Source: Candidatus Pantoea floridensis (GTDB lineage: Bacteria > Pseudomonadota > Gammaproteobacteria > Enterobacterales > Enterobacteriaceae). Taken from it: DNA of 64,000 nt. This document shows, one piece after another, positions 44,544 to 61,918 of the stretch (the first letter of the stretch is position 1; the number at the start of each line of letters is the position of its first letter). The translations under genes and the position numbers were made by a program. The notes beneath the pieces were generated by a model that had not been told where the DNA came from, did not search any database, and saw only the letters and a list, made by a program, of their open reading frames with translations. Location of the stretch: NCBI RefSeq assembly GCF_900215435.1, contig NZ_OCMY01000002.1:1-64000 (forward strand), written 5' to 3'.

Positions 44544-45662
44544 CTATACCTTCATCCAATCCGCAATAATCTGCCCATATAACTGCTCGGCTTCCCCCAG
44601 CTTACTCAACGAACAATACTCATCGGTCTGGTGCGCCATCGTCGGTTCGCCCGGGCCTAATATAATACATGGCGGATTACCCAGCGCGGGCAGCAGCAGC
44701 GAGGCATCGGTAAAGTAGGGCACAACGCGCGCGGCTAACGGCTGCGTGAAAAGCGCCTGGCAGCGACGATAGACCGATTGGATCCACTGATTCTCTTCGG
44801 AACTCAATACGGCAGGCAGATCGACCAGGGTGGTGATCTGCACCTCTTCTCCGAGCATCGCCGCTAACCGCTGGCGAATTGTTGCGTGTTGCAAATTCGG
44901 CGCGCTGCGAATATCAACATCAAATGCCGTGCGATCCGGCACCGAGTTAATGTTTAAACCGCCCTGAATCCGTCCCACATTCAGCGTGGGCTGCTTCATC
45001 AACGGATGCGGTGCGCCGGGAGAAAAGCGGCGGATTTTGCCTAACGCATCAGCCGCGAGGTAAATAGCGTTGATTCCCAGTTCCGGCATCGCGCCATGGG
45101 CGGTTTTTCCGCGCGTCTCGCAGCGAAGCCACAGTGCACCTTTATGCCCAATCACCGGATAATTGGCTGTCGGTTCGCCGACGATTAGGGCCCCAATTTC
45201 CGGCAACGTGCCGGCATCAATTAGCGACTGTGCGCCTTCACAGCCCGTTTCTTCACCGCCGGTGATCAGCAGAACCACGCCGCGCCCGGTACGAATCGCC
45301 GTTTGCTGCTGGAGGCAGGCGAAAGCAAAAGCCGCTATCGCCGCTTTCATATCACTCGAACCGCGTCCATAAAGCCGATCGGCCACGATATCCGAGCCAA
45401 AAGGATCGTGTTGCCAGGGTTGATTGCCGAGCGGCACGGTATCCAGATGGCCGGTAAACGCCAGCGGTTTGCCGGGCGATGCGCCGTGAAGATGCGCAAT
45501 CAGATTGCTGCGGCCAGCACCAAAAGACGACAAGTTAACCGCAAAACCTCGCTCGCTCAGCCAATCGGCCAAAAACTGCATGCACGCCGCTTCATTACCG
45601 GGCGGATTGATCGTATCGAAACCGAGCAAATGTTGGGTAAGGGCGAGCGAAGCGGGAGGCAT
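44544..45662 (-). CDS. M20 peptidase / ArgE-like deacylase
   Basis: A 372-residue M20A amidohydrolase with TGHLDTVPLG, RGSSDMKAAIAAFAFA, ITGGEETGCEGAQ, VGEPTANYP and the C-terminal ILGPGEPTMAHQTDEY. These are the Zn ligands and catalytic Glu of ArgE/DapE enzymes that hydrolyse N-acyl amino acids. Its start overlaps the stop of the GATase-like gene by one base, with GGAGCG upstream. Last gene of a minus-strand operon with PTE-like and ABC genes, so it probably acts on an imported amide. Confidence 0.9.
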   Translation of the reverse strand: MPPASLALTQHLLGFDTINPPGNEAACMQFLADWLSERGFAVNLSSFGAGRSNLIAHLHGASPGKPLAFTGHLDTVPLGNQPWQHDPFGSDIVADRLYGRGSSDMKAAIAAFAFACLQQQTAIRTGRGVVLLITGGEETGCEGAQSLIDAGTLPEIGALIVGEPTANYPVIGHKGALWLRCETRGKTAHGAMPELGINAIYLAADALGKIRRFSPGAPHPLMKQPTLNVGRIQGGLNINSVPDRTAFDVDIRSAPNLQHATIRQRLAAMLGEEVQITTLVDLPAVLSSEENQWIQSVYRRCQALFTQPLAARVVPYFTDASLLLPALGNPPCIILGPGEPTMAHQTDEYCSLSKLGEAEQLYGQIIADWMKV

Positions 45663-46417
45663 CAGGCGCGCTCCGTTAGCCAGTCGAAGCAGTTAATCCA
45701 CAGCTGGCGATAGCCGGGCCATTGCGTAAACTCTTGCGGTAGCCAGTGTGCCGACATATCGCTGGTCCACACCAGCGATCGCCCTTTTTCATATTCCCGC
45801 ACCGCTAATAATGGATGCGCGGTGCCAGCAACGGTCGCCAGCAGCGTACCTTCAGGCTGCATCTCCACTTCGTTGTATCCCAGCATCCACGGCCATTCGC
45901 CGGAAATATTGTTGAATACCGCATGCGGCTGCGTCATCTCCAGCGTCGATCCTTCGGGCGTTTCAACACGATCATCCCAGGCGAGACAGCGCACCGGCAG
46001 GACTTTTTCCACCAGCGTATGGCGGAAGCGCGCACCGCCATTGATACCCTGAAAACTGAAGTAACCACCAATCATCATCAGGCTGCCGCCCGCCGCCACG
46101 TAATCGTGGATCAGCGATAAGCGGTTGGCGGTGCGACGGCTTTTTAGCCAGGTATCGGGATGCAGCAGCAGCGTATTGGCACCAATATCCGAAAGAATAA
46201 TCACATCCCACTGCTGCAATCCTTCCAGCGTGAGTGGGAAATCGGTGGCCGCAGCGTGTGCCGGCATGTGCGTGACGGCGTAATCGCTCTCCTTTAACGC
46301 CGCGATAAAATCGCTGGCGCCGGTATGCCAGGTGGCGGTGGAGAATTGGTCAAAGCCTTTAATGTGGTTCGAGGTGCTGGTCCAGGATTCGCCCACCAGC
46401 AAGACTTGTTTCTGCAT
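45662..46417 (-). CDS. Glutamine-amidotransferase-like (ThuA/GATase fold) protein lacking the usual Cys
   Basis: A 251-residue protein with a class I GATase-like fold: MQKQVLLVGESWTSTSN, a strand-loop WDVIILSDIGANTLLLHPDTW, and the elbow LMMIGGYFSFQG where a true glutaminase would have Cys (here Tyr). The C-terminal ends with VWTSDMSAHWLP. It is usually annotated glutamine amidotransferase; the missing nucleophile suggests a ThuA-like hydrolase/isomerase role. I chose 46417 (AAGGGA upstream); 46435 is an alternative overlapping the previous gene. Within the ABC/PTE operon. Confidence 0.8.
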   Translation of the reverse strand: MQKQVLLVGESWTSTSNHIKGFDQFSTATWHTGASDFIAALKESDYAVTHMPAHAAATDFPLTLEGLQQWDVIILSDIGANTLLLHPDTWLKSRRTANRLSLIHDYVAAGGSLMMIGGYFSFQGINGGARFRHTLVEKVLPVRCLAWDDRVETPEGSTLEMTQPHAVFNNISGEWPWMLGYNEVEMQPEGTLLATVAGTAHPLLAVREYEKGRSLVWTSDMSAHWLPQEFTQWPGYRQLWINCFDWLTERA

Positions 46418-46431
46418 GATAATTTTCCCTT

Positions 46432-47511
46432 TCACCCGCCAAATACGCGCTGCGGGTTAGCAATCAATAAGGTTTCGAGTTGTTCGCCGCTGACGCCGTG
46501 ACGTTTCAGGCGCGGGACAAAATGTTTGAGGATGTAGCCATAACCGTGGCCGCCAAAGCGCGTTAGCATGGTTTTCAGGAACACATCCTGCGACAGCAAA
46601 ATTTGCTGGAGGTAGCCGTCATCGATCAATTCGCAGATGGCGCGCGCGTTCTCTTCATCGGAAGGTGATTGCGCCGATTCATCGGCGTAGTAATAGCTCA
46701 TGCCGATCATGTCGTATTCAAGGAACACCCCGCGATCGGCCAGTTCACGCTGATAGCGTTTATCGGCAAAGCTAGGATTCATATGGCACAGCACGGTGTG
46801 ACGCAGATCGGCGCCTTCCTGCTGCAAGATATCCAGCACCTTATGGCCTAAACGTTCCCAACCCGGCAGATGCACCTGAATCGGCACGCCGGTTGCCGCA
46901 CTGGCGCGTCCCGCCGCGCGCAACGATTTCTCTTCATCGGCGGTAAAGTGGCTGGAGATACCGATTTCACCGATCAGTCCGGCAATCACCTCCGGTTTTT
47001 CCGCTGCGCCACCGAGATCAAAGATCAATTTTTCGCTAAGCTGCTCCACGCTGATACTTTTCACCCATGCGGGATGCGAGGGCTCGAGGTAAAGTCCAGT
47101 GCCCATCACTATGTTGAGACCGGTCAAGCGGGCGATACGCTGTAAGCCCTTCGGGTCGCGGCCAATGCCGATATTGGTTGGATCAATAATGGTTTCACCC
47201 CCCAACGCGCGGTACTTCATCAACTCTTCAATCGCCAGGTCGACGTCAAACAGTTGGCAGTTATCGCGGCTCATCAGCGGGTTCATGGCCAGTTCGCCGA
47301 GGTTCTCGATCTTGACTGGCATCTCGGCAATATGACGATCGCTGCAACAGCAGGGCGGCACCCATTTGCCGGAAGCGTCCAGCAGAATGTGTTCGTGCAT
47401 CAAGGTCACGCCCATCTCAGCCAGCGGTAGCGGTCCTAAAACCGTCATCACGTAGCCACTTGTAACGCCAAGCGGTAACGGATCGGCATGACGGAAAATC
47501 GATCCTTTCAT
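46432..47511 (-). CDS. Phosphotriesterase-family metallohydrolase (PTE/PLL-like)
   Basis: A 359-residue TIM-barrel amidohydrolase. The first metal motif HEH is at residues 39-41 (LMHEHILLD), the bridging ligand looks like Glu in IGEIGISS (PTEs with carbamylated Lys differ), then His in QVHLPGWE and CHMNPSF and Asp in LLSQDVFLK. Members hydrolyse lactones, phosphotriesters or sugar lactones. AAGGAT precedes the start and it lies three bases after the permease gene. An unusual Cys triplet VPPCCCSDRH at residues 51-60 is present. Substrate unknown. Confidence 0.9.
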   Translation of the reverse strand: MKGSIFRHADPLPLGVTSGYVMTVLGPLPLAEMGVTLMHEHILLDASGKWVPPCCCSDRHIAEMPVKIENLGELAMNPLMSRDNCQLFDVDLAIEELMKYRALGGETIIDPTNIGIGRDPKGLQRIARLTGLNIVMGTGLYLEPSHPAWVKSISVEQLSEKLIFDLGGAAEKPEVIAGLIGEIGISSHFTADEEKSLRAAGRASAATGVPIQVHLPGWERLGHKVLDILQQEGADLRHTVLCHMNPSFADKRYQRELADRGVFLEYDMIGMSYYYADESAQSPSDEENARAICELIDDGYLQQILLSQDVFLKTMLTRFGGHGYGYILKHFVPRLKRHGVSGEQLETLLIANPQRVFGG

Positions 47512-47514
47512 GGG

Positions 47515-48525
47515 CTATCCTTTTGCCGGCGCGCGGGCGGGGTTGAGAATGCGGGTATTCAGCCAGATAGCGAGCAGAATGATGGTGCCGGTGGCGATTT
47601 GCGTATAGAACGGCGAGATGTGCGACAGAATCAGTCCGTTCTGGATGATGGCAATCGACAGCGCGCCCAGCAGCGTGCCGATAACGGTGCCAAAGCCGCC
47701 AAACAGGCTGGTGCTGCCCAGCACTACGGCAGCAATCACCTGCAGTTCAAAGCCTTCACCCTGATTGGATGAGCCGCTGCCGAGACGCGCGGTAATGATC
47801 ATCCCCGCCAGCGCCGCTGCCATGCCGCTAATGATATAGACCTTCATGGTCACCGCTTTGGTGTTGATACCGCTGCGACGTGCACCTTCCGCATTGGCGC
47901 CAATCGCCGTAACGTAGCGGCCAAAACGCATATGGTTCAGCACAATATGCCCGGCAAACAGGACTACGATGCCAATCAGCGCGGGCATCGGAACGCCAAG
48001 CACCCAGGCGCGCCCCATAAAGGTAAACAAGCTGTCGGCCGGCACCGGAATGGAATAACCTTGCGTGACCAGCAATGCCACTCCGCGCACTACCGCCAGC
48101 GTGGCCAGGGTGACGATAAACGCCGGAATTCCCTCAAAGGCGATAAAGAAGCCATTGATGGCGCCAACTAATCCGCCCAGCAGCAATCCACCGATCAGCA
48201 CCACTGGCCAGGATAAGCCCCAGTTGTTAAGCGCGATAGCGGAAAGCGCGCCAACCAGCGCCAGCGTCGAACCCACCGACAAATCAATGCCGCCGGTAGT
48301 GATCACCAACGTCATTGCGGTTGCAACGATCAGCAGCGGAGCACTTTGCCGAATGATATTCAGCCAGTTAGTGCTGGTGAGAAAGTTGCTGGTGATCAGC
48401 GAAAACACCACGCAGCAAAAGATGAAAAACAGCGCAATGCTCACCACGCCCGAATGGTTATGCAGCAGGCGACGCGGTAGCGAATGCTGAATCATGCGCG
48501 AACTGCTTAAATTCATGATGCTCAT
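47515..48525 (-). CDS. Ribose-type (CUT2) ABC transporter permease
   Basis: A 336-residue RbsC-like inner-membrane permease with about ten helices. It carries LVITTGGIDLSVGSTLALVGAL and GAINGFFIAFEGIPAFIVTLATLAVVRG, both family hallmarks, and AVVLGSTSLFGGFGTVIGTLLGAL near the end. GAGG precedes the start and nine bases separate it from the ATPase gene. It pairs with the single-domain ATPase 48535-49317; its binding protein is probably encoded at 51251 on the other arm. Confidence 0.92.
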   Translation of the reverse strand: MSIMNLSSSRMIQHSLPRRLLHNHSGVVSIALFFIFCCVVFSLITSNFLTSTNWLNIIRQSAPLLIVATAMTLVITTGGIDLSVGSTLALVGALSAIALNNWGLSWPVVLIGGLLLGGLVGAINGFFIAFEGIPAFIVTLATLAVVRGVALLVTQGYSIPVPADSLFTFMGRAWVLGVPMPALIGIVVLFAGHIVLNHMRFGRYVTAIGANAEGARRSGINTKAVTMKVYIISGMAAALAGMIITARLGSGSSNQGEGFELQVIAAVVLGSTSLFGGFGTVIGTLLGALSIAIIQNGLILSHISPFYTQIATGTIILLAIWLNTRILNPARAPAKG

Positions 48526-48534
48526 CCCATTACC

Positions 48535-49317
48535 TCAGTGTGCAGCCGCCGAATGAGCGGTAAATTTCTCACCCACGATCAAATTAACGATATCGCTCAG
48601 GCTGGTATCCGCTACGCGGCGATCCGCTACGTTGGTGCCTTCGTACATCACCATAATGCGGTCGCACACCAAGAACAGATCCTGCAAACGATGGGTGATG
48701 AGGATGACGCTAACCCCGCGCGCAGAGACGCGCCGTATCAGCTCCAGCACCGCTTCCACTTCCGCTACGGCTAACGCAGCGGTCGGCTCATCCATGATCA
48801 GCACTTTCGGATCGAAGGCGGCGGCGCGGGCAATAGCAATCGCCTGCCGTTGGCCGCCGGATAAATTGCGCACCAGCAAACGCGTATCGGGAATCGAAAT
48901 ACCCAAACCTTTCAGCATATCGCGTGCTTCGGCATGCATTTTGGCCTGATCGAGAAAAGGGATGCCGAGCACCGATTTCATTGGCTCGCGGCCCATAAAC
49001 AGATTACCGGCGACATCCACCGTGTCGCACAGCGATAAATCCTGGTAGACCATCTCAATGTGACAACGGCGCGAATCCGCCGGATTGGTGAAGTGCTGCT
49101 GCTCACCGTCGATGCGAATGGCACCGCTGGTGGGCACCACCGCACCGGAGAGCACTTTGGTCAGGGTTGATTTGCCCGCACCGTTATCGCCCACCAATCC
49201 CAGCACTTCCCCTGGCGCCAGCTGCAAATTCACGCCGCGCAGGGATCGTATCGAACCGTAAGTTTTGGTGATGTTAATCATTTCTACCCGTGCCGGGGTA
49301 GCGTGTGGCTGCTGCAT
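48535..49317 (-). CDS. Single-domain CUT2 ABC transporter ATP-binding protein
   Basis: A 260-residue ATPase: Walker A GDNGAGKST, Q-loop VYQDLSLC, signature LSGGQRQ, Walker B VLIMDEPTAAL and switch His in LITHRLQ. It is half the length of RbsA (two fused domains), like FrcA-type single NBDs, so it would act as a homodimer. GGGAG precedes the ATG. The two GTAAACCGGTTTAC palindromes lie 78 and 249 bases upstream, making this the first gene of a LacI-controlled operon. Confidence 0.92.
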   Translation of the reverse strand: MQQPHATPARVEMINITKTYGSIRSLRGVNLQLAPGEVLGLVGDNGAGKSTLTKVLSGAVVPTSGAIRIDGEQQHFTNPADSRRCHIEMVYQDLSLCDTVDVAGNLFMGREPMKSVLGIPFLDQAKMHAEARDMLKGLGISIPDTRLLVRNLSGGQRQAIAIARAAAFDPKVLIMDEPTAALAVAEVEAVLELIRRVSARGVSVILITHRLQDLFLVCDRIMVMYEGTNVADRRVADTSLSDIVNLIVGEKFTAHSAAAH

Positions 49318-49394
49318 CTGATCACTCCCATTGCGGTTACCGGGACAATTGTTAGTCAGCGGGAAAGGTCGGATCTGGCGCGGTTTACATGCTA

Positions 49395-49408
49395 GTAAAC
49401 CGGTTTAC
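49395..49408. promoter_or_regulatory. LacI-family operator, proximal copy
   Basis: GTAAACCGGTTTAC, a perfect 14-base palindrome with the central CG typical of LacI/GalR operators, 78 bases upstream of the ATPase gene. A half site CGGTTTAC lies just before it at 49381-49388. Confidence 0.75.
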
Positions 49409-49565
49409 CTGCCGGATACAACATAACCTGATACGTGCTGGCTCTGGATACAACGATATTTGTTTGCCGGGAGGAATATTGCAGTTTCTGTGCCAGGTTA
49501 TAATTTAGCCAGTATTGTGAAGGCAAAAATATCGTTAATTCAATAGGCTAAATGTGCGTAGCGAG

Positions 49566-49579
49566 GTAAACCGGTTTAC
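49566..49579. promoter_or_regulatory. LacI-family operator, distal copy
   Basis: Second identical GTAAACCGGTTTAC, 171 bases from the first (centre to centre) and 72 bases after the stop of the LacI gene. Identical paired palindromes at this spacing suit repression by looping of a tetrameric or dimeric regulator. The rest of the 333-base gap (49318-49650) is AT-rich with no gene. Confidence 0.75.
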
Positions 49580-49650
49580 TAAAAGGCAATACGCTGGTGA
49601 TTTTTGATCATCTTTTGCGCCAAAGTTGTGCAATTTTGCGCCATTTTGGT

Positions 49651-50667
49651 TCAGGGGCAGCAGAGCTGGATCGAATCGCGTCCAACCCATTCGACCGGCA
49701 AGCGAGTTTCCAATGGAATATTGGCTTCGTTGTTGAGCAGGCGCAGCATGATATCTACTGCGGTATAACCCAGTTCCCGGGCGGGTTGGCGAATGGTGGA
49801 GATGCGCGGCTGCGTCAGGTCGGTGTAGTTGGCGTCATCAAAGCCAACCAGTGAAAGTGCAGCGGGGGCCTGAAGGCCGCTGGCACGTAAGCCATCCAGC
49901 AAGCCCAGCACCAGATAATCACTGGCGGCAAACACGGCGGAGGGGCGTTGAGACTGGCTGAACAGCTGCTGCAAAGCCTGCTGACCAAACTCACGTTCGT
50001 AGTTACCGTACATGACCCATTCGTCGGGTACCGACAAACCGGCCTGCTTCATCGCGGTGCAGAAGCCGAGATAACGTTCGCGCACGCTCATCAGCTGTTC
50101 CGGACCGCCAATAAAGGCGATATGACGATGTCCCGCAGCGATCAGCTGTTCAGTCGCGATACGCCCGCCTTGCACGTTGTCAGCAAATACTTTTGGTACG
50201 CTGCTGCCGGGAATATCTTCATCGAGTAATACTATATGCTGATGACGCTGCATCTCTTTACGCAGCAAGCCGTTATCTGGACGGTTGGTGGTAAACAGCA
50301 GGCCATCGACCTGGCGTGTGTCCAGCCAGCGAATGAACTGCGCCTCTTTGTCGGGATTGTTGCGGGTGATGCAGAGTACCAAACTGTAACCGCGCGCTGA
50401 TGCCGCCTCTTCTGCCGCGTCGGCCAGTTCAGCGAAGAAGGAGTTGGTGATATCGGGCAGCACTAAACCCAGGGTTTCGCTGCCGCCTTTGCTCAGGCGT
50501 CGCGCCAGGCTGTTGCCGCGATAATCGAGCTGGTGAATGGCAGCTTCAATGCGGTCAATCGTCTCCTGCGGCAACACAATGCTGTGATTCAGATAGCGAG
50601 AGACCGTGGCCTTGGAGAGCCCTGCTAATTTCGCCACGTCAGATAACAACACGCGTTTTGTACTCAT
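49651..50667 (-). CDS. LacI-family transcriptional regulator
   Basis: A 338-residue repressor: HTH LSDVAKLAGLSKATVSRYLNHS (residues about 8-29), hinge LARRLSKGGSETLGLVLPDI, and a periplasmic-binding-protein-like sensor domain with FIGGPEQLMSVRERYLGF and SLVGFDDANYTDLTQPRISTIRQP. ATG at 50667 is preferred although GAGG is close to it; ATG at 50679 is an alternative. Upstream of the ABC-PTE-M20 operon in the same direction and next to two LacI-type palindromes. The ligand is probably the sugar-like transport substrate or its phosphorylated form. Confidence 0.93.
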   Translation of the reverse strand: MSTKRVLLSDVAKLAGLSKATVSRYLNHSIVLPQETIDRIEAAIHQLDYRGNSLARRLSKGGSETLGLVLPDITNSFFAELADAAEEAASARGYSLVLCITRNNPDKEAQFIRWLDTRQVDGLLFTTNRPDNGLLRKEMQRHQHIVLLDEDIPGSSVPKVFADNVQGGRIATEQLIAAGHRHIAFIGGPEQLMSVRERYLGFCTAMKQAGLSVPDEWVMYGNYEREFGQQALQQLFSQSQRPSAVFAASDYLVLGLLDGLRASGLQAPAALSLVGFDDANYTDLTQPRISTIRQPARELGYTAVDIMLRLLNNEANIPLETRLPVEWVGRDSIQLCCP

Positions 50668-50690
50668 GTTCCTCGCCATAGTGATTTATC

Positions 50691-50870
50691 GGTCGCCATG
50701 AATGGCGGCTCTACAAAACGTGCCGATCAATCGTAAGGTCGCCATTTCTCGGTCGCCATGAATGGCGACCCTACAAAACGTGCCGATTAATCGTAGGGTC
50801 GCCATTTCTCGGTCGCCATGAATGGCGACCCTACAAAACGTGCCGATCAATCGTAGGGTCGCCATTTATG
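50691..50870. repeat. Three-copy 60-bp tandem array of family A palindromes
   Basis: Exact period of 60 bases, three units (50691-50750, 50751-50810, 50811-50870), each with GGTCGCCATGAATGGCGACC-type core, CTACAAAACGTGCCGAT and TCGTAGGGTCGCCATTT. Units differ at only a few positions. It lies between the divergent LacI gene and the binding-protein gene, leaving their promoters between 50870 and 51250. Confidence 0.92.
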
Positions 50871-50993
50871 GCGACCTCACAATAACGCGCGGAGTCGCAA
50901 GAGGATGCGTTTTTATCCACACCAATATCTGTAACACACTTAAGCGCGGCTGATACAGCGCTTTCCTTTGCCCACTGGCGCATAAATAAACAC

Positions 50994-51022
50994 TTGACAA
51001 AAAAAGTCACTCAGCGAATTGT
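50994..51022 (+). promoter_or_regulatory. Possible sigma-70 promoter of the binding-protein gene
   Basis: TTGACA (50994-50999) is a perfect -35 box; 17 bases on lies AATTGT (51017-51022), a poor -10. The long leader to the start at 51251 also contains GTTTACCG near 51028, a half site of the LacI palindrome. Assignment is tentative. Confidence 0.35.
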
Positions 51023-51250
51023 ATGCACAGTTTACCGCAGTACCGGGAATCCATTCCCAAACTGACTTTCGTTATTTCATCAGGTATTCCTAGCGGATGG
51101 GTTGCCGAAAAAACGTAAGCAGGGCGTTTTAAAAACACTGCACCTGCGCAGTGTGAACAGCATATCCATCGATATTTGCCCGCCAAAAATAATCTCAGTG
51201 TCTTAACGCTGGGAAACGCTGATTATTATTTATTCCCGACGAGGAACACC

Positions 51251-52201
51251 ATGATGTTATCTTTCACCGGAAAACTGCGTTCATTGGTTTTGGCTACAGG
51301 CTTAATTTCTGCGGGTTCCCTTTTTTCCCTGGCGCAAGCCGCACCAACTTATGCCTTAGTGCAAATTAATCAGCAGGCATTATTCTTTAATCTGATGAAT
51401 CAGGGCGCGCAAGAAGCCGCTAAAGCCAGTGGTAAAGATCTGGTTATTTTCAATGCCACCGATAATCCGGTTGCGCAGAACGATGCAATTGAAAACTATA
51501 TTCAGCAAGGTGTGAAAGGCATTCTGGTTGATGCTATTGACGTCAACGGAATTATGCCGGCGATTAAAGAAGCCGCTGCCGCGAACATTCCCGTAATTGC
51601 CATCGATGCGGTATTACCAGCGGGTCCACAAGCGTCACAGGTTGGCGTGGATAATCTGGAAGGCGGAAAAATACTCGGTAAATATTTTGTCGATTACGTG
51701 GCGAAAGAGATGGGTGGCAAGGCACGCCTGGGCATTGTCGGTGCCCTTAATTCGGCGATCCAGAACCAGCGTCAGAAAGGCTTTGAAGAGACCATCAAGA
51801 GCAATAGCAACATCACCGTTGCCGATGTGGTGGATGGTCAGAATATCCAGGACAACGCCATGACGGCAGCGGAAAACCTTATCACCGGCAATCCTGATTT
51901 AACGGCAATTTATGCCACCGGAGAACCGGCACTGCTGGGCGCGATTGCCGCCGTGGAAAACCAGGGACGGCAGAAAGCGATCAAAGTATTCGGATGGGAT
52001 CTGACGGCCAAAGCCATCAGCGGTATTGATGGCGGTTACGTTACTGCTGTGCTGCAGCAGGATCCGAAAAAGATGGGCGAAGAGGCGCTGAAAGCCCTCA
52101 ACACGCTGTCGGCAGGGAAAACGGTGAGTAAAACCATTCTGGTTCCAGCCACCGTGGTGACCAAAGCGAACGTCGATACTTATCGTCCGCTGTTCAAGTA
52201 A
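51251..52201 (+). CDS. CUT2 sugar ABC transporter substrate-binding protein (RbsB-like)
   Basis: A 316-residue periplasmic protein with signal peptide (LRSLVLATGLISAGSLFSLAQAAP) and the peripla_BP_4 pattern: QALFFNLMNQGAQEAAKASGKDLVIFNATDNPVAQNDAIENYIQQG (residues about 41-86), GVDNLEGGKILGKYF, IYATGEPALLGAIAAVENQG. The ATG at 51251 is followed by a second ATG; CGAGGAAC lies upstream. It abuts the convergent kinase gene with only four bases between stops. It probably feeds the permease/ATPase on the other side of the LacI gene. Confidence 0.92.
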   Translation: MMLSFTGKLRSLVLATGLISAGSLFSLAQAAPTYALVQINQQALFFNLMNQGAQEAAKASGKDLVIFNATDNPVAQNDAIENYIQQGVKGILVDAIDVNGIMPAIKEAAAANIPVIAIDAVLPAGPQASQVGVDNLEGGKILGKYFVDYVAKEMGGKARLGIVGALNSAIQNQRQKGFEETIKSNSNITVADVVDGQNIQDNAMTAAENLITGNPDLTAIYATGEPALLGAIAAVENQGRQKAIKVFGWDLTAKAISGIDGGYVTAVLQQDPKKMGEEALKALNTLSAGKTVSKTILVPATVVTKANVDTYRPLFK

Positions 52202-52205
52202 CCGG

Positions 52206-53075
52206 TTACTCGCTGCGCGTAGCCAGCAGCGCGGCGAGTTCCTGTTGCGAAGGGAAAGCCGTCACGGTGCCGGTACGGCTCACGGTGATGGCGGCTGCCT
52301 GGCTGGCATGTTGTAAAGCAAGCCGATCGGGTTCCACGCCGCGCAGGAGCGCAGACGCCAGCAGCACGGCGAGGAAGGTATCGCCCGCACCGGTGCTGTC
52401 CACCGCCTGCGTCGGTGAGGCGGGGCAAAAGCTGCGTTGCGTGGCGGTGAAAAGCAGCGCACCGGCAGCGCCCTGAGTAACGATGAGGGTGCTGACGCCA
52501 GCCGGTTGCAATAAATCGGCTTCCAGCTGGTTCACAACGGCAATATCGACCAGCGGCCAAAGTTGCGCGAAGTCAGGATTGACCGGTGAGGGATTAAACA
52601 CGGTTTTCATCCCTCTGGTTTTTGCCCAGCTGAACAGCGCGCGGGTTTTCTCTATGGAGAAATTGCCTTGCTGCAGCAAAATATCACCCGGAGCGGCATC
52701 GGCTAAATAGGGCAGAATCATCTCCACCGTTAAGGCATCGGCCGCTGCGGTGGTGGTAATAATGGCATTGTCACCATCGCTGCTGTTTAAAATAATTGAG
52801 GCGTCACTGTGAGGGGATGAATATTCAGTGGGAAAAAGTGTCACCGGTTCATGAGCGATATTCTCACGAATCCAGCGTCCATTGCTGTCGTCGCCTATTG
52901 CGGCAATTAAACGTGTATCGATACCGCAGCGTGAAATAACAATCGCCTGATTAGCGCCTTTGCCGCCAATATCCTGCGATGTTTTTACGCCATGGATAGA
53001 CGCGCCCTTTTGAGGCAAATCGTTAATGGACCAGGTTTCATCAACAACAATATTACCTGCAACATAAATTCGCAT
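52206..53075 (-). CDS. PfkB/ribokinase-family carbohydrate kinase
   Basis: A 289-residue kinase. The N-terminal IYVAGNIVVDETWSINDLPQKGASIHG, the GGKGANQA sugar-binding motif, NPSPVNPDF and the catalytic VDSTGAGDTFLAVLLA (base Asp in GAGD) are intact. It would phosphorylate the imported sugar or nucleoside-like product. The start at 53075 lies only 28 bases from the divergent BtpA-family start at 53104, so regulatory elements of the two must overlap. Confidence 0.9.
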   Translation of the reverse strand: MRIYVAGNIVVDETWSINDLPQKGASIHGVKTSQDIGGKGANQAIVISRCGIDTRLIAAIGDDSNGRWIRENIAHEPVTLFPTEYSSPHSDASIILNSSDGDNAIITTTAAADALTVEMILPYLADAAPGDILLQQGNFSIEKTRALFSWAKTRGMKTVFNPSPVNPDFAQLWPLVDIAVVNQLEADLLQPAGVSTLIVTQGAAGALLFTATQRSFCPASPTQAVDSTGAGDTFLAVLLASALLRGVEPDRLALQHASQAAAITVSRTGTVTAFPSQQELAALLATRSE

Positions 53076-53103
53076 AATGGTTCTCATTAATAAGGTGAAG
53101 AAG

Positions 53104-53949
53104 ATGGCTTCTATATCAGCAGGAAAAAGTAGCGCAATACAAGATATTTTTTCCAGAAAGAAAGCAGTGATAGGTGTTATTCATTGCGAGGCTTTTCCGG
53201 GGGCGCCTAAATATCAAGGTAAGCCGCTCCCCGCTATTATTGAGCGTGCGCTGCGTGATGCCGAAAATTATATATCGGGTGGTGTACATGGTTTGATCGT
53301 AGAAAATCACGGTGATATTCCTTTTGCCAAACCAGAGGATATTGGTCCGGAAACCGCTGCCTTTATGGCGGTCATTACGGAAAAAATTCGCGAACGTTTT
53401 GGCGTGCCACTCGGTATTAATGTGCTGGCCAACGCCGCCATTCCTGCTTTTGCTACCGCTCTGGCGGGCGGCGCTGATTTTGTCCGTGTGAATCAGTGGG
53501 CTAATGCCTATATCGCCAATGAAGGATTTATTGAAGGCGCGGCGGCAAAAGCGCTGCGTTACCGCAGTCAGCTGCGGGCCGAACATATCCGCGTGTTTGC
53601 CGATAGCCATGTCAAACACGGCAGCCATGCGATTGTTGCCGACCGCTCCATTCAGGAGCTCACGCGGGACGTGGATTTCTTTGACGCGGATGCGGTGATC
53701 GCCACCGGGCAACGCACCGGCGACAGCGCCACGCTGGATGAAATCGACGAAATCCGTGCGGCTACCGAGCTGCCGCTGCTGGTTGGTTCCGGCGTAACAC
53801 CCGTCAACATCTGCCAGATCCTTGAACGCACGCAGGGCGTAATCGTCGCCAGCACGCTGAAAGTGGATGGCGTGTGGTGGAATGAGGTTGAGCTTGCACG
53901 CGTCAAACACTTCATGTCCGTGGCGCAAGCGGCGCTGGAGGAGGCGTGA
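53104..53949 (+). CDS. BtpA/SgcQ-family TIM-barrel protein
   Basis: A 281-residue protein with the family start KKAVIGVIHCEAFPGAPKYQG, GGVHGLIVENHGDIPF, LGINVLANAAIPAFATALAGGADFVRVNQWANAYI and the C-terminal GVIVASTLKVDGVWWNEVE. BtpA was named for photosystem I assembly, but bacterial members such as SgcQ sit in sugar operons and are thought to act as nucleotide/sugar metabolic enzymes. AAGGTGAAG precedes the ATG at 53104; an upstream ATG at 53077 overlaps the kinase start. The stop overlaps the TenA-like gene by one base. Confidence 0.88.
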   Translation: MASISAGKSSAIQDIFSRKKAVIGVIHCEAFPGAPKYQGKPLPAIIERALRDAENYISGGVHGLIVENHGDIPFAKPEDIGPETAAFMAVITEKIRERFGVPLGINVLANAAIPAFATALAGGADFVRVNQWANAYIANEGFIEGAAAKALRYRSQLRAEHIRVFADSHVKHGSHAIVADRSIQELTRDVDFFDADAVIATGQRTGDSATLDEIDEIRAATELPLLVGSGVTPVNICQILERTQGVIVASTLKVDGVWWNEVELARVKHFMSVAQAALEEA

Positions 53950-54608
53950 TGAAAGGCTTCTCTGATGAGCTTTTGCAGCAGCATCAAACACTATGGCTGG
54001 CGATGCAACAGCATCAGTTTGTGCAGGATATCGAGCGCAATCAGCTGCCTGATGCCGTGTTTAATCGCTATCTGGTGTTTGAAGGCAACTTTGTCGCCAC
54101 TGCCATCAATATCTTTGCGCTGGCAGTGAGTAAAGCGCCGGATATTCGCCAGCAGCGCTGGTTGATTGGCGTGTTAAATGCGCTGGTGGATACGCAAATT
54201 GCCTGGTTTGAAGCGGTGCTGGCGCGGCGCAACATCAATACGGCGGATTATCCGGATGATTTGCCCGGCGTGACGGCGTTTCGCGATGGCATGTTAAACG
54301 TCGCAAAGCAGGGCAGTTTTGCCGAGATCATCACGCTGATGTTTGGTGCCGAGTGGATGTATTACCACTGGTGCGCACGCGTCAGTGCCCAACCGCTGCT
54401 GGATGACGACATCCGTCGCTGGGTCGATATGCATGCTGAAGAGGAGTTTCATCAGCAGGCGCTGTGGCTGAAAGCCGAGCTGGATCGCTGTGCACAGGAT
54501 CTTAGTGAGGCAGAAAAAAACCGCTTATCCATTCTCTACGGCCAGGTGCTGCAGTGGGAAATCGATTTCCACAGCGCCGCCTATCTCAGCGCTGGGGAGA
54601 GAAGATGA
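53949..54608 (+). CDS. TenA/THI-4-family protein, apparent TenA_E subtype
   Basis: A 219-residue all-helical TenA/PqqC-fold protein: FVQDIERNQLPDAVFNRYLVFEGNFVATAINIFALAVSKAPD near the start and EEEFHQQALWLKAELDR near the end. The place where thiaminase II enzymes have their catalytic Cys (xPCxWxYY) reads GAEWMYYHW, that is Glu. Cys-less TenA_E proteins hydrolyse formamidopyrimidine amides rather than thiamine itself. It is translationally coupled to both neighbours (TGATG before, ATGA after). Thiamin-pyrimidine or another amide/amine hydrolysis is the inferred chemistry. Confidence 0.8.
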   Translation: MKGFSDELLQQHQTLWLAMQQHQFVQDIERNQLPDAVFNRYLVFEGNFVATAINIFALAVSKAPDIRQQRWLIGVLNALVDTQIAWFEAVLARRNINTADYPDDLPGVTAFRDGMLNVAKQGSFAEIITLMFGAEWMYYHWCARVSAQPLLDDDIRRWVDMHAEEEFHQQALWLKAELDRCAQDLSEAEKNRLSILYGQVLQWEIDFHSAAYLSAGERR

Positions 54609-55372
54609 CGACGTGTTTTATTGAGGCGCGCAATATCTGCAAACGCTTCGGTGCCTTAACGGCACTTAACCAGGTCAATCTCACCATTCATCGCGGCGAA
54701 GTGCTGGCGCTGCTCGGCGATAACGGCGCAGGGAAATCCACCTTTACCAAAGTGCTGTCGGGTGCTTATAGCGCCAGCGACGGCGAACTGTGGATTGACG
54801 GCCAGTCGGTGAAATTCACCTCGCCGCGCCAGGCTGCAGAACACGGCATCGCCACCATTTATCAGGAGCTGGCGCTGGCGGAGAACCTTAGCATTGCCGA
54901 GAACGTTTTCCTTGGCCGTGAGCTCAAGCGCCGCGTGCTGGGCATTCCTTTTCTACGCCGACGCGAGATGCGTGAGCAGGTCGATCAGCTGTTAAAGGAT
55001 CTTGACGCGCATATCTCCGATGCCGAAGCGTCGGTCGGCAGTCTCTCCGGCGGACAGCGCCAGGCGGTGGCGATCTGCCGCGCGCTCAACCTCAACGCGC
55101 AGCTGGTGATTATGGATGAGCCAACTGCCGCGTTGGCCGTTGCAGAAACGCAAAAAGTATTACAGCTGACGCGGCGACTCGCGGCGCGCGGCTGCGCCGT
55201 GGTGCTGATCAGCCACAACATCAGTGATGTGTTCGCGGTGGCCGATCGCATGGTGGTGTTCCGCCGTGGACGAAAAATTGCCGAGCGGCGTCACGCCGAA
55301 ACCTCACCCGATGAAATCGTTTCACTCATTACCGGCGCGCATCCCGATGCACGCGTGTTTGAGAATCAGTAA
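54605..55372 (+). CDS. Single-domain CUT2 ABC transporter ATP-binding protein
   Basis: A 255-residue ATPase paralogous to that at 48535: Walker A GDNGAGKST, YQELALAENLSIAENVFLGREL, signature LSGGQRQ, Walker B LVIMDEPTAAL, switch His in LISHN. Start at 54605 overlaps the TenA-like stop by four bases. It is followed by a binding protein and two permeases, so this arm encodes a complete importer. Confidence 0.93.
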   Translation: MTTCFIEARNICKRFGALTALNQVNLTIHRGEVLALLGDNGAGKSTFTKVLSGAYSASDGELWIDGQSVKFTSPRQAAEHGIATIYQELALAENLSIAENVFLGRELKRRVLGIPFLRRREMREQVDQLLKDLDAHISDAEASVGSLSGGQRQAVAICRALNLNAQLVIMDEPTAALAVAETQKVLQLTRRLAARGCAVVLISHNISDVFAVADRMVVFRRGRKIAERRHAETSPDEIVSLITGAHPDARVFENQ

Positions 55373-55401
55373 TTGCTCTGCCATTAACCAGGGGAAATAA
55401 A

Positions 55402-56373
55402 ATGCGTCGAATTGCTACTGCAGTCTGTTCTCTCTCATTACTGTTTTCAGGTTATTCCCTCGCCGCAGAAAAAGTGGCCTTTGTGCCACAGATTATCGGC
55501 ATTCCCTATTTCCAGGCGATGGAAGCGGGCGGTAAACGCGCGGCCAGCGATCTGGGCGTCGAGTTTGTCTATAGCGGTCCGGTAGACACCAATCCAATGG
55601 ATCAACTGCAGATCGTGCAGAACCTGATTGCGCAGAAGGTTAACGCGATCGGCATCAGCGTGCTGGATGCATCCAGCATTGCGCCGGTACTGGCGCAGGC
55701 GAAAGCGAATAATGTGCATTTGTTTACCAGCGACAGCGATGCCCCTGACAGCGGCCGTCCGGTATATGTCGCGCAGGCTACCGATCAGGGATTGGGCGAA
55801 ACCATCATTGACGAGATGGTCAAACGCGTTGGCGAACGCGGCAAAATCGGCATCGTTTCCGGTGAAGCCACCGCATCTAATCTCAATAGCTGGATCGGCT
55901 TCATGCAGCAGCGGGTGAAAAGCAAATATCCCCACATTACTTTGCTTAAACCGCAATATGCCGGTGGCTCCGCCAGCCGCGCGGCACAGATCGCCACCGA
56001 TTTAATGTCCGCCAATCCGGATCTTAAAGGCTTGATCGCCATGGCGTCGACCACTTGCCCTGGCGTCGCGCAGGCCATTGAAACCGCCGGTAAGAATGGC
56101 AAGGTGATCGGCAGCGGTTTTTGCAGCCCGAACACCGCGCGCGCCTATCTGAAAAGCGGTGCTTTTGGTTACACGGTGCTGTGGGATCCCGAGAAGCTTG
56201 GCTATCTGACGGTGTGGGCCGGTAAGCAGCTGATTGATGGCAAAGCCTTGAGCGCCGAAAACCGCGTGCCAGGTTTCGCCGAGCCGGTGAAGTTTGATAG
56301 CAAAACCGGCGTACTGCTGCTCGGTGCGCCGGCAGTATTTACCAAAGAGAATGTCGACCAGTTCAAATTCTAA
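55402..56373 (+). CDS. CUT2 substrate-binding protein (RhaS/LsrB-like)
   Basis: A 323-residue periplasmic protein, signal peptide ATAVCSLSLLFSGYSLA, then KVAFVPQIIGIPYFQAMEAGGKRAASDLGVEF, the opening used by LsrB/RhaS-type proteins for AI-2 or rhamnose. It also has NLIAQKVNAIGISVLDASSIAPVL, IGIVSGEATASNLNSWIGFMQ, and TVLWDPEKLGYLTVWAGKQL. Two Cys residues (TTCPGVAQ, GFCSPNTA) may form a disulfide. AGGGGA precedes the ATG. It serves the downstream permease pair. Confidence 0.92.
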   Translation: MRRIATAVCSLSLLFSGYSLAAEKVAFVPQIIGIPYFQAMEAGGKRAASDLGVEFVYSGPVDTNPMDQLQIVQNLIAQKVNAIGISVLDASSIAPVLAQAKANNVHLFTSDSDAPDSGRPVYVAQATDQGLGETIIDEMVKRVGERGKIGIVSGEATASNLNSWIGFMQQRVKSKYPHITLLKPQYAGGSASRAAQIATDLMSANPDLKGLIAMASTTCPGVAQAIETAGKNGKVIGSGFCSPNTARAYLKSGAFGYTVLWDPEKLGYLTVWAGKQLIDGKALSAENRVPGFAEPVKFDSKTGVLLLGAPAVFTKENVDQFKF

Positions 56374-57326
56374 TGGGGATGCGCATGCACATGACTTCAC
56401 GGGAGATCGCTTTACTGGCGATCGCCTTCCTCGCCATTGCCGGTTTCTCCTGGTTTTCTCCCTGGTTCGCGACGGTGGATAACCTGCTCACCATTCTGCG
56501 CAATAGCAGTGAACTGCTGTTGATCGCGCTAGGGATGACGCTAGTGATCGCCATGGGCGGCGTGGATGTGTCCGTCGGCGTGGTGATGGGCGTAGCGGCC
56601 TGGGGGGTTGGCCAGCTGCTGCTGACGAATTCGCCATGGCTGGCGGCGCTGGCGGGCCCGTTGCTCGGATTACTGCTGGGCTTGATGACCGCGCTGGTGG
56701 TAGTGATTGGTCGTATTCCAGCGATTGTTGGCACCCTCGGCTTGTTCGGCGTGTTGCGCACCGGGCTGTTTGCGCTGCTCGGCGGACAGTGGCTTTCCGG
56801 TTTGCCAGGCACGTTAACCGGCGGGTTAATGCATTCCCTGTTGGGCGTGCCGGTGATGGCCTGGATCATTGGGCTGGTGTGGGCCAGCGTGTGGCTGGTA
56901 GTGCGTCACACGCCGTACGGTTTGTGGCTGCTGGCGGCGGGCAACTCGGAGGAGAAAGCGCGGCTGGCGGGCATTCCGGTCACTCAGGTACGCATCGCCA
57001 TCTTTATGATCAGCGGTTTGCTGTGCGGTATTGCCGCCACCTGCTATATCGCGACTTATCGCAACGTCGAGATGACGGTGGGCGGTAGCCTGGCGCTGGA
57101 AGCCATCGCCGCCGTGGTGCTAGGCGGCACGCGGATTACCGGGGGATCGTGCAGCTTGCTGGGGACGCTGCTTGGGGTGTTACTGCTGCGTATTCTGCAA
57201 AATGGCTTACTGCTGGTGGGCATTCCATCGCTGTGGCAAACGGTGGTGACCGGCGCGGTATTGCTCATCGTATTGAGTAGCGAAGCGGCCAGCAGTCGCG
57301 TATTTACCTTCAGGAGGCTTGCATGA
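56373..57326 (+). CDS. CUT2 ABC transporter permease 1
   Basis: A 317-residue RbsC/LsrC-like permease, with LVIAMGGVDVSVGVVMGVAAWG and VLGGTRITGGSCSLLGTLLGVLLLRILQNGLLL. Its first base is the last base of the binding-protein stop codon; its stop overlaps the next permease gene by four bases. Forms a heterodimer with the next permease by analogy to LsrCD. Confidence 0.92.
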   Translation: MGMRMHMTSREIALLAIAFLAIAGFSWFSPWFATVDNLLTILRNSSELLLIALGMTLVIAMGGVDVSVGVVMGVAAWGVGQLLLTNSPWLAALAGPLLGLLLGLMTALVVVIGRIPAIVGTLGLFGVLRTGLFALLGGQWLSGLPGTLTGGLMHSLLGVPVMAWIIGLVWASVWLVVRHTPYGLWLLAAGNSEEKARLAGIPVTQVRIAIFMISGLLCGIAATCYIATYRNVEMTVGGSLALEAIAAVVLGGTRITGGSCSLLGTLLGVLLLRILQNGLLLVGIPSLWQTVVTGAVLLIVLSSEAASSRVFTFRRLA

Positions 57327-58267
57327 CGTTATGGCGTAAATCTCCTGACTTAACGCTGCTGATCGCGCTATGGCTGCTGCTGGCCATCGGTATTGTATTG
57401 CTGTTGCCACAGATGCTGGCGTCCTGGTCAATCACCTCGATCCTGCAATTCGCTACCTTGCTGTCGCTGGTCGCGCTGGGACAATCGTTAGTGGTGATGA
57501 CCGGAGGCGGCGGCATCGATCTCTCAGTGGGCGGCAACGTTTCGCTTTCGGCGGTTCTCGGCATGCTGGCGCTCGATCAGGGCATCAATCCGGCATGGCT
57601 ACCGCTGATCTGTCTGCTCACCGGCACGCTGGCGGGCGCCATCAACGGTTGGCTGATTGCGCGGCTGCGGCTCTGGCCGCTCATCGTCACGCTGGGCAGC
57701 TTCTACCTGTTTTCTGGGTTGGCACTGGCGCTGACCGGCGGTGCCGCTATCGCCGGGGTTCCCACGGCACTAACCCAGTGGGGACGCGGCGCACAATTCT
57801 TCATTCCATTACCGTTTCTCACCTGCGTGATACCGGCTTTCCTCATCGCCTGGCTGATTCTGAGTAAAAGCGCGTGGGGGAAATGGATTTACGCCTGTGG
57901 CTTCAATGAACACGCCACGCGGCTGGTGGGCATTCCGGTTGATCGCCTGCGTTTGCTCGCCTATTGCCTGAGCGGCCTGCTGGCGGGTTGCGCGGGGTTC
58001 GTCTCGCTCACCTGGTTAGGTAGCGCGCGCCCGGAAATTGGCGTCAATCTTGAACTCGAATCCCTTACCGCAGCACTGCTCGGCGGCGTGGCCATTTTTG
58101 GCGGACGCGGCAGCGTGGTCGGCGTATTGGCCGCCGCGCTGATGCTGGTAACTATTAAAACCTGCATGTTGCAGCTGGGTTTAAATAGCGTCTGGCAGCT
58201 GGGCGTGGTGGGTATGTTGTTGATTATCGTCTTGATGGCACAACGACTTTTTATTTATCGGAGATAA
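57323..58267 (+). CDS. CUT2 ABC transporter permease 2
   Basis: A 314-residue RbsC/LsrD-like permease: LVVMTGGGGIDLSVGGNVSLSAVLGML, GAINGWLIARLRLWPLIVTLGSFYLFSGLALALTGG and LTAALLGGVAIFGGRGSVVGVLAAALM. AGGAGG precedes the ATG, which overlaps the previous gene's stop (ATGA). Three bases separate it from the M20 gene. Confidence 0.92.
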   Translation: MTLWRKSPDLTLLIALWLLLAIGIVLLLPQMLASWSITSILQFATLLSLVALGQSLVVMTGGGGIDLSVGGNVSLSAVLGMLALDQGINPAWLPLICLLTGTLAGAINGWLIARLRLWPLIVTLGSFYLFSGLALALTGGAAIAGVPTALTQWGRGAQFFIPLPFLTCVIPAFLIAWLILSKSAWGKWIYACGFNEHATRLVGIPVDRLRLLAYCLSGLLAGCAGFVSLTWLGSARPEIGVNLELESLTAALLGGVAIFGGRGSVVGVLAAALMLVTIKTCMLQLGLNSVWQLGVVGMLLIIVLMAQRLFIYRR

Positions 58268-58270
58268 CTC

Positions 58271-59593
58271 ATGAATCTGACTGAACTCATCAGCGCACAC
58301 GTCGACGCTAGCGCAGAACGCATCGCGCAGACGCTGTGCGATCTGCTGGCGTTTCCCTCCATCGTCAAAGTCGATCCGCGTGAAGCCGGTCCTGGCGAGC
58401 GCGATTGCCAGCTTTATCTGCAGCAGCGCCTTGCGTCACTAGGCATGGAGACCGATTTATGGGATCCCGATGGTCCTGCGCTCTACGCGAAATATCAGGG
58501 TCGTCCGGGCGCCAATAAAGGCCGCACCTTTGAGGGGCGTCCAAATCTTGGGGGAACCTTAAGTGGGGCGGGCGGCGGTAAATCGCTGATGCTCACCGGC
58601 CATATTGACGTTGTTCCGCCGGGCCCGCCGGAACATTGGCTGAGCGATCCCTTTGTACCGGAAATCAAAAACGCGGCCGTTTACGGTCGAGGCGCGGTCG
58701 ATATGAAAGGCGGCGTTGCCTGCATGTTGATGGCGGTAGAGCTGTTGCAGGACCTCAATATTCGCCTGGCGGGAGATGTGGTATTTACCACCGTGGTCGA
58801 TGAGGAGATTGGCGGCATGGGATCGCTGGCGATGGTCGACCGTGGATTTAAAGCGGATGCGGGCATTATGACCGAACCCACCGCCAATCGCATTTCACCC
58901 ATCTGCCACGGTATTTTGTGGGGACGGATTATTCTCGACGGCATCGGCGGGCATGCGGAGCTGACGCCAAACAGCTGGGACAGCAGCGGTCCGGTGGATG
59001 CGGTGATGCTGTGTCGGCAGATGCTGGATGGCCTCGATGTGCTCAATCGTCGCTGGCAGACGCAGCCGAGCAAAAATCATCCGCTGATGGAACTGCCCAA
59101 CCAGATTATCGTGACGCAGCTGAAAGTGGGTGAACATCCCGCCTCAATTGCCGGTCGCGCAGAGATTGTGATTGATGTGCAGTATCTGCCATCGGAGAAG
59201 GATGAGATGGGGCTGGGTGGCAACGTTAAAAAAGAGATTGAGGCACATGTCGCGAAGGTTTGCGCGCTGGATCCTTATCTGGCCAGGCATCCGGCCAGGG
59301 TCGAGTGGATTCTGGATGCCGATTGCGCAGAAATCGAAGCGGATCATCCGTTTGTCACCACCTTCCAGCAGGGTGTTACCGATGCCGCACTGAATCCGCA
59401 GCTGGCTGGATTTGGTGCGCATAGTGATATTGGCCTGCCGAGTACGCTAGGGCAAACGCCGACGGTGAACTTCGGTCCGGGCGATCCGGCGATGTCGCAC
59501 CAGCCCAACGAGCATGTGCCGATTGCAGATCTGGTGGCCTGCACCAAAGCGATTGCGCTGACGTTAGTGCGCTGGTGCGGTACCGCCTCGTAG
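58271..59593 (+). CDS. M20 peptidase, long ArgE/DapE-like form
   Basis: A 440-residue M20 metallohydrolase, longer than ArgE (about 380). It has the metal motifs LTGHIDVVPPGPPEHW, GRGAVDMKGGVACML and TTVVDEEIGGMGSLAMV, MTEPTANRISPICHG, and VNFGPGDPAMSHQPNEHV. GGAGATAACTC precedes the ATG. It closes the plus-strand arm and is the counterpart of the M20 gene that closes the minus-strand arm, so amide hydrolysis is likely the last step on both sides. Substrate unknown. Confidence 0.92.
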   Translation: MNLTELISAHVDASAERIAQTLCDLLAFPSIVKVDPREAGPGERDCQLYLQQRLASLGMETDLWDPDGPALYAKYQGRPGANKGRTFEGRPNLGGTLSGAGGGKSLMLTGHIDVVPPGPPEHWLSDPFVPEIKNAAVYGRGAVDMKGGVACMLMAVELLQDLNIRLAGDVVFTTVVDEEIGGMGSLAMVDRGFKADAGIMTEPTANRISPICHGILWGRIILDGIGGHAELTPNSWDSSGPVDAVMLCRQMLDGLDVLNRRWQTQPSKNHPLMELPNQIIVTQLKVGEHPASIAGRAEIVIDVQYLPSEKDEMGLGGNVKKEIEAHVAKVCALDPYLARHPARVEWILDADCAEIEADHPFVTTFQQGVTDAALNPQLAGFGAHSDIGLPSTLGQTPTVNFGPGDPAMSHQPNEHVPIADLVACTKAIALTLVRWCGTAS

Positions 59594-60790: not shown

Positions 60791-60827
60791 AATTGACCTC
60801 GGCAATGGATGATGTGAACCGAATATC

Positions 60828-60890: not shown

Positions 60891-60900
60891 ATGTGTGTTG

Positions 60901-61908: not shown

Positions 61909-61918
61909 CCTCGACTCC

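Follow-up and report, generated by a model that had tools for sequence, protein, structure and literature searches.

Does the dense run of transport and enzyme genes on a megaplasmid of Candidatus Pantoea floridensis encode one catabolic pathway or several, and for what kind of compound? The run lies at positions 44544-59593 of the first 64 kb of contig NZ_OCMY01000002.1 (741,572 bases, in a genome of 5.45 Mb), and this whole stretch of 64,000 bases is referred to below as the window. From comparison of gene order across genomes, the natural unit is positions 44544-54608, inherited as a block of ten genes: an M20 amidohydrolase (M20a), a protein resembling glutamine amidotransferases (GATase-like, PF07090), a phosphotriesterase-related (PTE) amidohydrolase, the permease and ATPase of a CUT2 ATP-binding cassette (ABC) importer, a LacI-family regulator, the solute-binding protein of that importer (SBP1), a PfkB kinase, a BtpA-family protein and a TenA-like protein. 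By the same comparison, a second CUT2 importer with a further M20 enzyme (M20b), at 54605-59593, is a separate add-on module. It is about as likely as not that the genes at 44544-54608 form a single pathway for the catabolism of a small molecule containing both ribose and amide bonds, and that the module behind them is an accessory importer; the best reading of the substrate is a ribose-bearing amide or N-heterocycle that is broken down.

The ten-gene core and its predicted operator

Relatives were collected by scanning named genomes with an alignment of 23 GATase-like sequences; at least 584 were found and the best 80 loci were kept, and locus counts given below refer to these 80. The GATase-like gene, as the bait, is present in all 80 by selection; loci were viewed with 10-kb flanks, so that M20b, which lies beyond the flank, is outside the count, and two loci (L079 and L080) are shortened by contig ends. 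Importer 1 was represented by SBP1 in 79 loci, the ATPase in 78 and the permease in 79, and the other core genes by PTE in 79, PfkB in 68, BtpA in 67, LacI in 59, M20a in 48 and TenA in 35. BtpA was always accompanied by PfkB (67/67), and at least one of M20a, TenA and a HyuC-type M20 (itself in 19 loci) was present in 70; the second importer was seen in 7. Rearranged versions of the core unit are found in Enterobacterales, Pseudomonas, Burkholderiaceae, rhizobia and roseobacters, and this spread over several genera shows that the genes are not neighbours by chance. Core blocks with TenA or a zinc hydrolase after BtpA also lie on plasmids of Roseivivax, Palleronia, Paracoccus, Pannonibacter, Allorhizobium and Rhizobium leguminosarum.

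Pantoea sp. At-9b carries all ten core genes, M20a through TenA, followed by unrelated genes and no second importer, while in Pantoea dispersa the second importer and M20b come directly behind the same ten genes. All ten core genes with no second importer in view were found in 25 of the 80 loci. A preliminary description of the locus had divided it into two arms; since SBP1, PfkB, BtpA and TenA stay with the left-hand genes where the second importer is absent (At-9b and these 25 loci), that boundary was misplaced, and two independent arms as first drawn are ruled out.

Within Pantoea (60 genomes), PF07090 was found in 23 genomes and BtpA in 22, and all 22 BtpA-bearing genomes carry the GATase-like gene on the same contig, about 7 kb away; the chance of such nesting, with kinship ignored, is ∼2e-15. 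The sole genome with a GATase-like gene only (G684) holds a broken fragment, and the gene is split in two pieces for the GATase-like protein in G097 and for BtpA in G653. The idea that many Pantoea have BtpA but no GATase-like gene was ruled out by these scans, the hit lists being of clusters rather than genomes. More widely, PF07090 was present in 8 of 295 Enterobacterales genomes, and a BtpA relative likewise in 8 of 295, five of these close; across the phylum, 50 of 398 genomes matched PF07090, with 16 full-length and strong matches and the remainder partial matches inside long frames.

In two Klebsiella pneumoniae records, core genes are accompanied by insertion sequences. The conjugative IncL/M plasmid pEBSI041-2 (11995-16731), which also carries SHV-12, holds a cut-off fragment (M20a, GATase-like, PTE and permease) that stops at IS26. 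In CP125156.1 (13037-21031) the core is present, but an IS1 lies within its kinase region and none of its genes is annotated as GATase-like; this record is labelled a plasmid though 5.37 Mb long, and looks like a mislabelled chromosome.

The gene content of the preliminary description, 15 genes, was recovered in full, each in its place and confirmed by Pfam (best family E-values from 5.7e-19 for TenA to 1.3e-108 for GATase1_like): one LacI gene, two single-domain ABC ATPases, three BPD_transp_2 permeases, two Peripla_BP_4 binding proteins and seven enzymes. Both transport systems have the components of a CUT2 ABC importer (Peripla_BP_4, BPD_transp_2 and ABC ATPase), with single-domain and not tandem ATPases. 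Some gene starts were taken from the annotated twin of the locus on a 729 kb plasmid of Pantoea sp. BRR-3P, the closest named relative (99.1% identity across the full 15 kb). The features are as follows.

44544-45662, minus strand: M20a, ArgE/DapE-like amidohydrolase (Peptidase_M20, 2e-29)
45662-46417, minus strand: GATase1-like protein, PF07090, lacking the nucleophile Cys (Pfam, 1.3e-108; PDB 2gk3, 197 bits)
46432-47511, minus strand: PTE-related amidohydrolase of predicted PTER type (Pfam, 3.2e-67; PDB 3k2g, 408 bits)
47515-48516, minus strand: CUT2 permease, importer 1 (BPD_transp_2, 2e-38)
48535-49281, minus strand: single-domain CUT2 ATPase, importer 1 (ABC_tran, 8.7e-34)
49395-49408, no strand: predicted LacI operator, copy 1, GTAAACCGGTTTAC (exact match)
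49566-49579, no strand: predicted LacI operator, copy 2, GTAAACCGGTTTAC (exact match)
49651-50679, minus strand: LacI-family regulator (LacI helix-turn-helix, 7.5e-14; Peripla_BP_1, 2.7e-38)
51251-52201, plus strand: SBP1, binding protein of importer 1 (Peripla_BP_4, 5.1e-53; PDB 5hsg, a Klebsiella-type solved structure, 552 bits)
52206-53075, minus strand: PfkB kinase, ribokinase-like (Pfam, 2.7e-37; PDB 3i3y, 459 bits; TIGR02152, 183.5 bits)
53104-53949, plus strand: BtpA/SgcQ-family protein, predicted phosphate-binding TIM barrel (TIGR00259, 218.7 bits; model and fold matches)
53946-54608, plus strand: TenA-like protein lacking the usual Cys (TENA_THI-4, 5.7e-19; alignment)
54605-55372, plus strand: single-domain CUT2 ATPase, importer 2, add-on module (ABC_tran, 5.3e-34)
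55402-56373, plus strand: SBP2, binding protein of importer 2, RhaS/LsrB-like (Peripla_BP_4, 6.2e-60)
56385-57326, plus strand: permease, importer 2 (BPD_transp_2, 2.3e-34)
57323-58267, plus strand: second permease, importer 2 (BPD_transp_2, 9.7e-40)
58271-59593, plus strand: M20b, ArgE/DapE-family deacylase (TIGR01910, 227.8 bits, over the cut-off of 217.6)

Abutting or overlapping gene ends, also described before, are real: M20a and the GATase-like gene meet at 45662, the GATase-like and PTE genes lie close together, and overlaps join BtpA to TenA (53946-53949), TenA to ATPase-2 (54605-54608) and the two permeases of importer 2 (57323-57326).

The perfect palindrome GTAAACCGGTTTAC occurs twice, at 49395 and 49566, upstream of ATPase-1. 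Genome-wide, with up to one mismatch allowed, these were the only two sites and the reversed control gave none; at up to three mismatches the window holds 3 matches against 1.4 expected, and such loose matches carry no meaning. A site within one mismatch was found in 56 of 59 LacI-bearing loci and is conserved in three lineages, with two sites in each of the 35 Enterobacterales loci and one site in 21 of 24 LacI-bearing loci from outside that order; L046, L050 and L055 have a variant with 2-3 mismatches. No site lay near a named gene in any of the 21 loci lacking LacI. Judged by this pattern, the LacI protein has its own predicted operator pair.

Two further palindromic sequences were observed. 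One, AAGTAACCGGTTACTC at 52196-52211, lies where the SBP1 and PfkB genes converge and resembles the operator core. A REP-like palindromic repeat, TCGCCATNNATGGCGA, has 15 matches in the window (up to two mismatches) against 0.55 expected, clustered between genes, including four copies at 50693-50874 and others at 44428-44537.

Enzymes and the proposed substrate

The GATase-like protein has the elbow GGYFSFQG (a GG[YF] motif), and the nucleophile Cys was absent in 51 of 51 relatives. With no such residue at the elbow it falls outside the class I glutamine amidotransferases and, as far as the alignment can tell, cannot be a glutaminase. PTE residues H39, H41, E182, H214, H243 and D309 are conserved in at least 97% of 94 aligned relatives and match the PTER-type metal site (HxH, Glu, His, His, Asp), E182, H214, H243 and D309 being assigned by analogy. 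PTE has a Glu where PTER has E169, and its closest solved relative is 3k2g; one report gives 3k2g as the structure whose fold best matches mouse PTER, which is an N-acetyltaurine amidase (PMC11374699). By analogy, PTE is predicted to be a dinuclear metal amidohydrolase of the PTER (amide hydrolase) type. M20a residues H72, D74, D104, E137, E138, E163 and H344 are conserved in at least 97% of 56 aligned relatives. A 381-residue metagenomic protein (P0003) has both PTE and GATase1-like domains, through fusion or frameshift.

BtpA scored above the BtpA/SgcQ model TIGR00259 (218.7 against a cut-off of 153.4) and below the photosystem I biogenesis BtpA model NF045918 (195.5 of 400). Its structural model (predicted local distance difference test score 81) had as best fold matches the phosphate-binding barrels of phosphoribosyl chemistry, a ranking that holds among the families listed and in which many HisF-like entries tie. 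Invariant positions were found at C-terminal strand ends in 37 of 56 cases, as compared to 11 of 56 at N-terminal ends, and BtpA is predicted from the model to be a phosphate-binding barrel.

TenA fell below the thiaminase II cut-off (TIGR04306, 61.6 of 130). What we take to be the active-site residue of thiaminase II, Cys135, is missing (block FGAEWMYY), and a Cys stands seven residues past this block in 16 of 18 aligned rows, with Ser in 2; the Asp that presumably binds the pyrimidine in TenA is Glu in all 18. A thiamin-type TenA elsewhere in the genome is not claimed, because the chromosomal PF03070 match lies among pyrroloquinoline quinone-type genes and is PqqC-like by position. In none of the 80 loci do TenA and the HyuC-type M20, the latter over the TIGR01879 cut-off, occur together, and each takes the position directly behind BtpA; this pattern suggests that their roles as hydrolases are equivalent and that each cuts an N-acyl or N-carbamoyl bond. 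Of five other kinases examined beside GATase-like genes, four score best as ribokinase, one of them above cut-off. The alternation of TenA and HyuC, the neighbouring kinases and the distant GATase-like neighbourhoods described below together point to ribose on a nitrogenous, amide-rich partner.

In the proposed pathway, the CUT2 importer (SBP1, ATPase and permease) would take the compound up whole, PTE and an M20 or TenA-type hydrolase would split its amide bonds, the GATase-like protein would act on the ribosyl part and may release ribose, PfkB would yield ribose 5-phosphate or a phosphoribosyl compound, and BtpA would act on an intermediate in which the sugar is phosphorylated. For its part, the second importer with M20b would take up and deacylate a related compound. 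The order of import, cleavage and sugar phosphorylation first suggested for the locus thus survives as the best reading with CUT2 uptake and amide hydrolysis, while the cut between arms does not.

Several observations weigh against this pathway. Ribose in the substrate is a reading to which kinases and gene neighbourhoods point, and the PfkB kinase of the window is itself below the ribokinase cut-off (TIGR02152, 183.5 of 299.65), with Val in place of the Asn of what we take to be the ribokinase GSINAD motif; the fifth neighbouring kinase (L166) is fructoselysine-kinase-like, fitting another sugar. Eight Pseudomonas loci and one from Erwinia mallotivora (L033) have neither PfkB nor BtpA and keep the importer, PTE, GATase-like and M20a genes, so the pair is dispensable at the locus, and eight BtpA-bearing loci show no M20a, TenA or HyuC in view. 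Conservation is biased upward, the 80 loci having been chosen for the highest similarity among at least 584 relatives. Two haloarchaeal GATase-like neighbourhoods have no kinase and no CUT2 genes. Finally, the operator sequence was not seen in the window close to SBP1, to BtpA or to the second importer; LacI therefore probably controls the ATPase-to-M20a operon only, as judged from site positions, and a single regulon for the whole is not supported.

A narrower version, in which the substrate is specifically a nucleoside or an oxidised or ring-opened nucleoside (an N-heterocycle riboside), we regard as possible but somewhat improbable. It draws on distant relatives of the GATase-like gene: one (L138) lies beside creatininase, cytidine deaminase-like and adenine deaminase-like genes, and another (L139) beside a HyuC-type M20 and the ribokinase above cut-off. 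A third, on a Rhodococcus rhodochrous BX2 plasmid (12948-26200), stands among genes for an LLM oxidoreductase, HAD phosphatase, LacI, PfkB, phosphoribosyl pyrophosphate (PRPP) synthase, flavin reductase and succinate-semialdehyde dehydrogenase, with a nicotinate phosphoribosyltransferase divergent from the cluster, and looks like ribosylation-linked heterocycle degradation. However, the identity of these relatives is 38-44%, which leaves room for a different function; L138 and L139 form long branches, and the core has no nucleoside hydrolase. A search of the openly licensed literature for nicotinate phosphoribosyltransferase, pyridine degradation, PfkB and PRPP synthase in combination gave nothing relevant. 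A further relative, on the K. pneumoniae conjugative plasmid pKLZT-2, lies with nitrilase, M24, ABC importer and LacI genes.

A broader and unlikely proposal is that PF07090 is a new hydrolase class freeing ribose from ribosyl amides or ring-opened N-ribosides, with ribokinase as its standing partner and BtpA/SgcQ in phosphoribosyl processing. In BX2 a protein of this class would complete a cycle: a heterocycle would receive ribose phosphate from PRPP, lose the phosphate, have its ring opened by oxidation and give up its ribose, from which PRPP would be made again. Interest in the locus would rise if the GATase-like protein does free ribose.

The second importer and the remaining alternatives

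Seven of the 60 Pantoea genomes carry an M20b orthologue (at least 92% identity), in every case behind BtpA and on its contig, and the core is without the module in 15 of 22 core-bearing Pantoea. By the criterion set in the preliminary description, a finding that the two arms never co-occur elsewhere would have refuted it; they do co-occur, in these 7 genomes and in 9 plasmid records. In L130, L132 and L133 (one family) and in L142 (the family of the window), ATPase-2, SBP2 and both permeases directly follow a different GATase-like gene, 50-53% identical to that of the window; M20b ends the operon in three of the four, the fourth contig ending earlier, and the L142 genome carries the core as well. 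As a rule, then, each of the two importers comes together with an M20 and a GATase-like protein. The module of the window has no GATase-like gene of its own (lost or never had) and is fused to TenA by a 4-base overlap; because it carries its own copy elsewhere, it probably shares the core enzyme. A single origin of the second-module GATase-like genes is not claimed, since the tree does not resolve these into a single clade (weak support, 83/52; 3 changes) and several rows are long branches.

It is unlikely that the core and this module are unrelated neighbours by chance. Such independence would account for the core lacking the module in most Pantoea carriers and most of the 80 loci, for the module standing alone with its own GATase-like gene in L130, L132 and L133, and for the want of a common operator. 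Against it, the Pantoea module occurs only behind the core (7/7), overlapping TenA and without a GATase-like gene of its own, and each system sets an M20 and a GATase-like protein beside its CUT2 importer.

A poorer prospect is Amadori or opine catabolism, in which the kinase would phosphorylate the sugar of a sugar-amino acid conjugate and M20 or PTE release the amino acid. M20 and HyuC enzymes do release amino acids, and on the Ti plasmid pTiA47a a GATase-like gene adjoins HyuAB, a SIS protein and a fructoselysine-kinase-like gene. However, the pTiA47a GATase-like gene forms a very long branch in the tree and may be there as a bystander, ribokinase-like kinases are found in the other four neighbourhoods, and no SIS deglycase is annotated in the annotated core neighbourhoods examined.

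Salvage of thiamin pyrimidine precursors, with TenA acting alongside an M20 deformylase in the manner known for base-degraded thiamin, is very improbable despite the TenA-like protein, the M20 hydrolases and an adjoining NMT1/SsuA-like transport operon (60901-63058), as the TenA score and Glu substitution given above, the ribokinase-like kinase and the CUT2 importer do not fit, the transport operon is outside the conserved block, and no riboswitch, including the thiamin pyrophosphate type, was found in 42000-64000 (0 Rfam matches at gathering score). The region next to the locus (59741-63058), comprising a cysteine-synthase-like PALP enzyme and NMT1/SsuA-like and SsuC-like transport genes, adjoins it in BRR-3P also but not in P. 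dispersa or At-9b.

Comparison with known systems

The catabolic pathway proposed for the core has partial counterparts. Ribose utilisation, which we take to be encoded by rbsDACBKR, has a CUT2 importer, a ribokinase-like PfkB kinase and a LacI-family regulator in common with the window, whereas the window adds amidohydrolases, GATase-like, BtpA and TenA genes and its ATPase is single-domain; NCBIfam rbs models were far below cut-off on the window proteins. Pseudouridine catabolism by PsuK and PsuG presumably works by the same logic, with a PfkB kinase and then an enzyme acting on a phosphoribosyl compound, whereas the window adds amide hydrolases and has no PsuG among its annotated core genes, no search having been aimed at PsuG. 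With the Lsr importer for autoinducer-2 (AI-2) and the rhamnose importer, the window shares the SBP2 type, two permeases and CUT2 membership. SBP2 is, however, below the cut-offs of the LsrB (175.5 of 384 bits) and RhaS (206.7 of 342.25) models, and four of what we take to be the six AI-2 ligand residues of LsrB differ in its alignment; AI-2 import by SBP2 is thus unsupported. Mammalian PTER, an N-acetyltaurine hydrolase, resembles the window PTE in branch and metal-site pattern, and by analogy may resemble it in activity.

The core operon is real, conserved and, within the openly licensed literature, undescribed, as the preliminary description had supposed, though of a familiar kind, the uptake-and-catabolism operon. 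No description of the version with CUT2, BtpA and TenA was found there, and the main text of a LacI-regulon survey makes no mention of phosphotriesterase, BtpA, M20 or ribokinase (PMC4052901). The block offers a defined, regulated and experimentally tractable context for PF07090, BtpA/SgcQ and the Cys-less TenA, families without settled function in it, and "glutamine amidotransferase" would prove the wrong label on many records.

One paper treats part of the set. In its accessible part, this 2026 study of Salmonella describes RikA (STM3547) as a PfkB ribose kinase that phosphorylates ribose, its gene lying upstream of STM3548 (GATase-like), STM3549 (DMT transporter) and STM3550 (PTE), and considers the locus a possible pathway for an unknown carbon source (PMC13432705). 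Like the window, that locus groups PfkB, GATase1-like and PTE genes; it differs in having a DMT transporter where the window has CUT2 genes, in naming, within that part, no M20, BtpA, TenA or LacI, and in its GATase-like proteins, which form a separate branch of the tree. The comparison ties the Salmonella RikA locus to a broader group of operons that have a binding protein of their own, and this should make the substrate findable by ligand screening.

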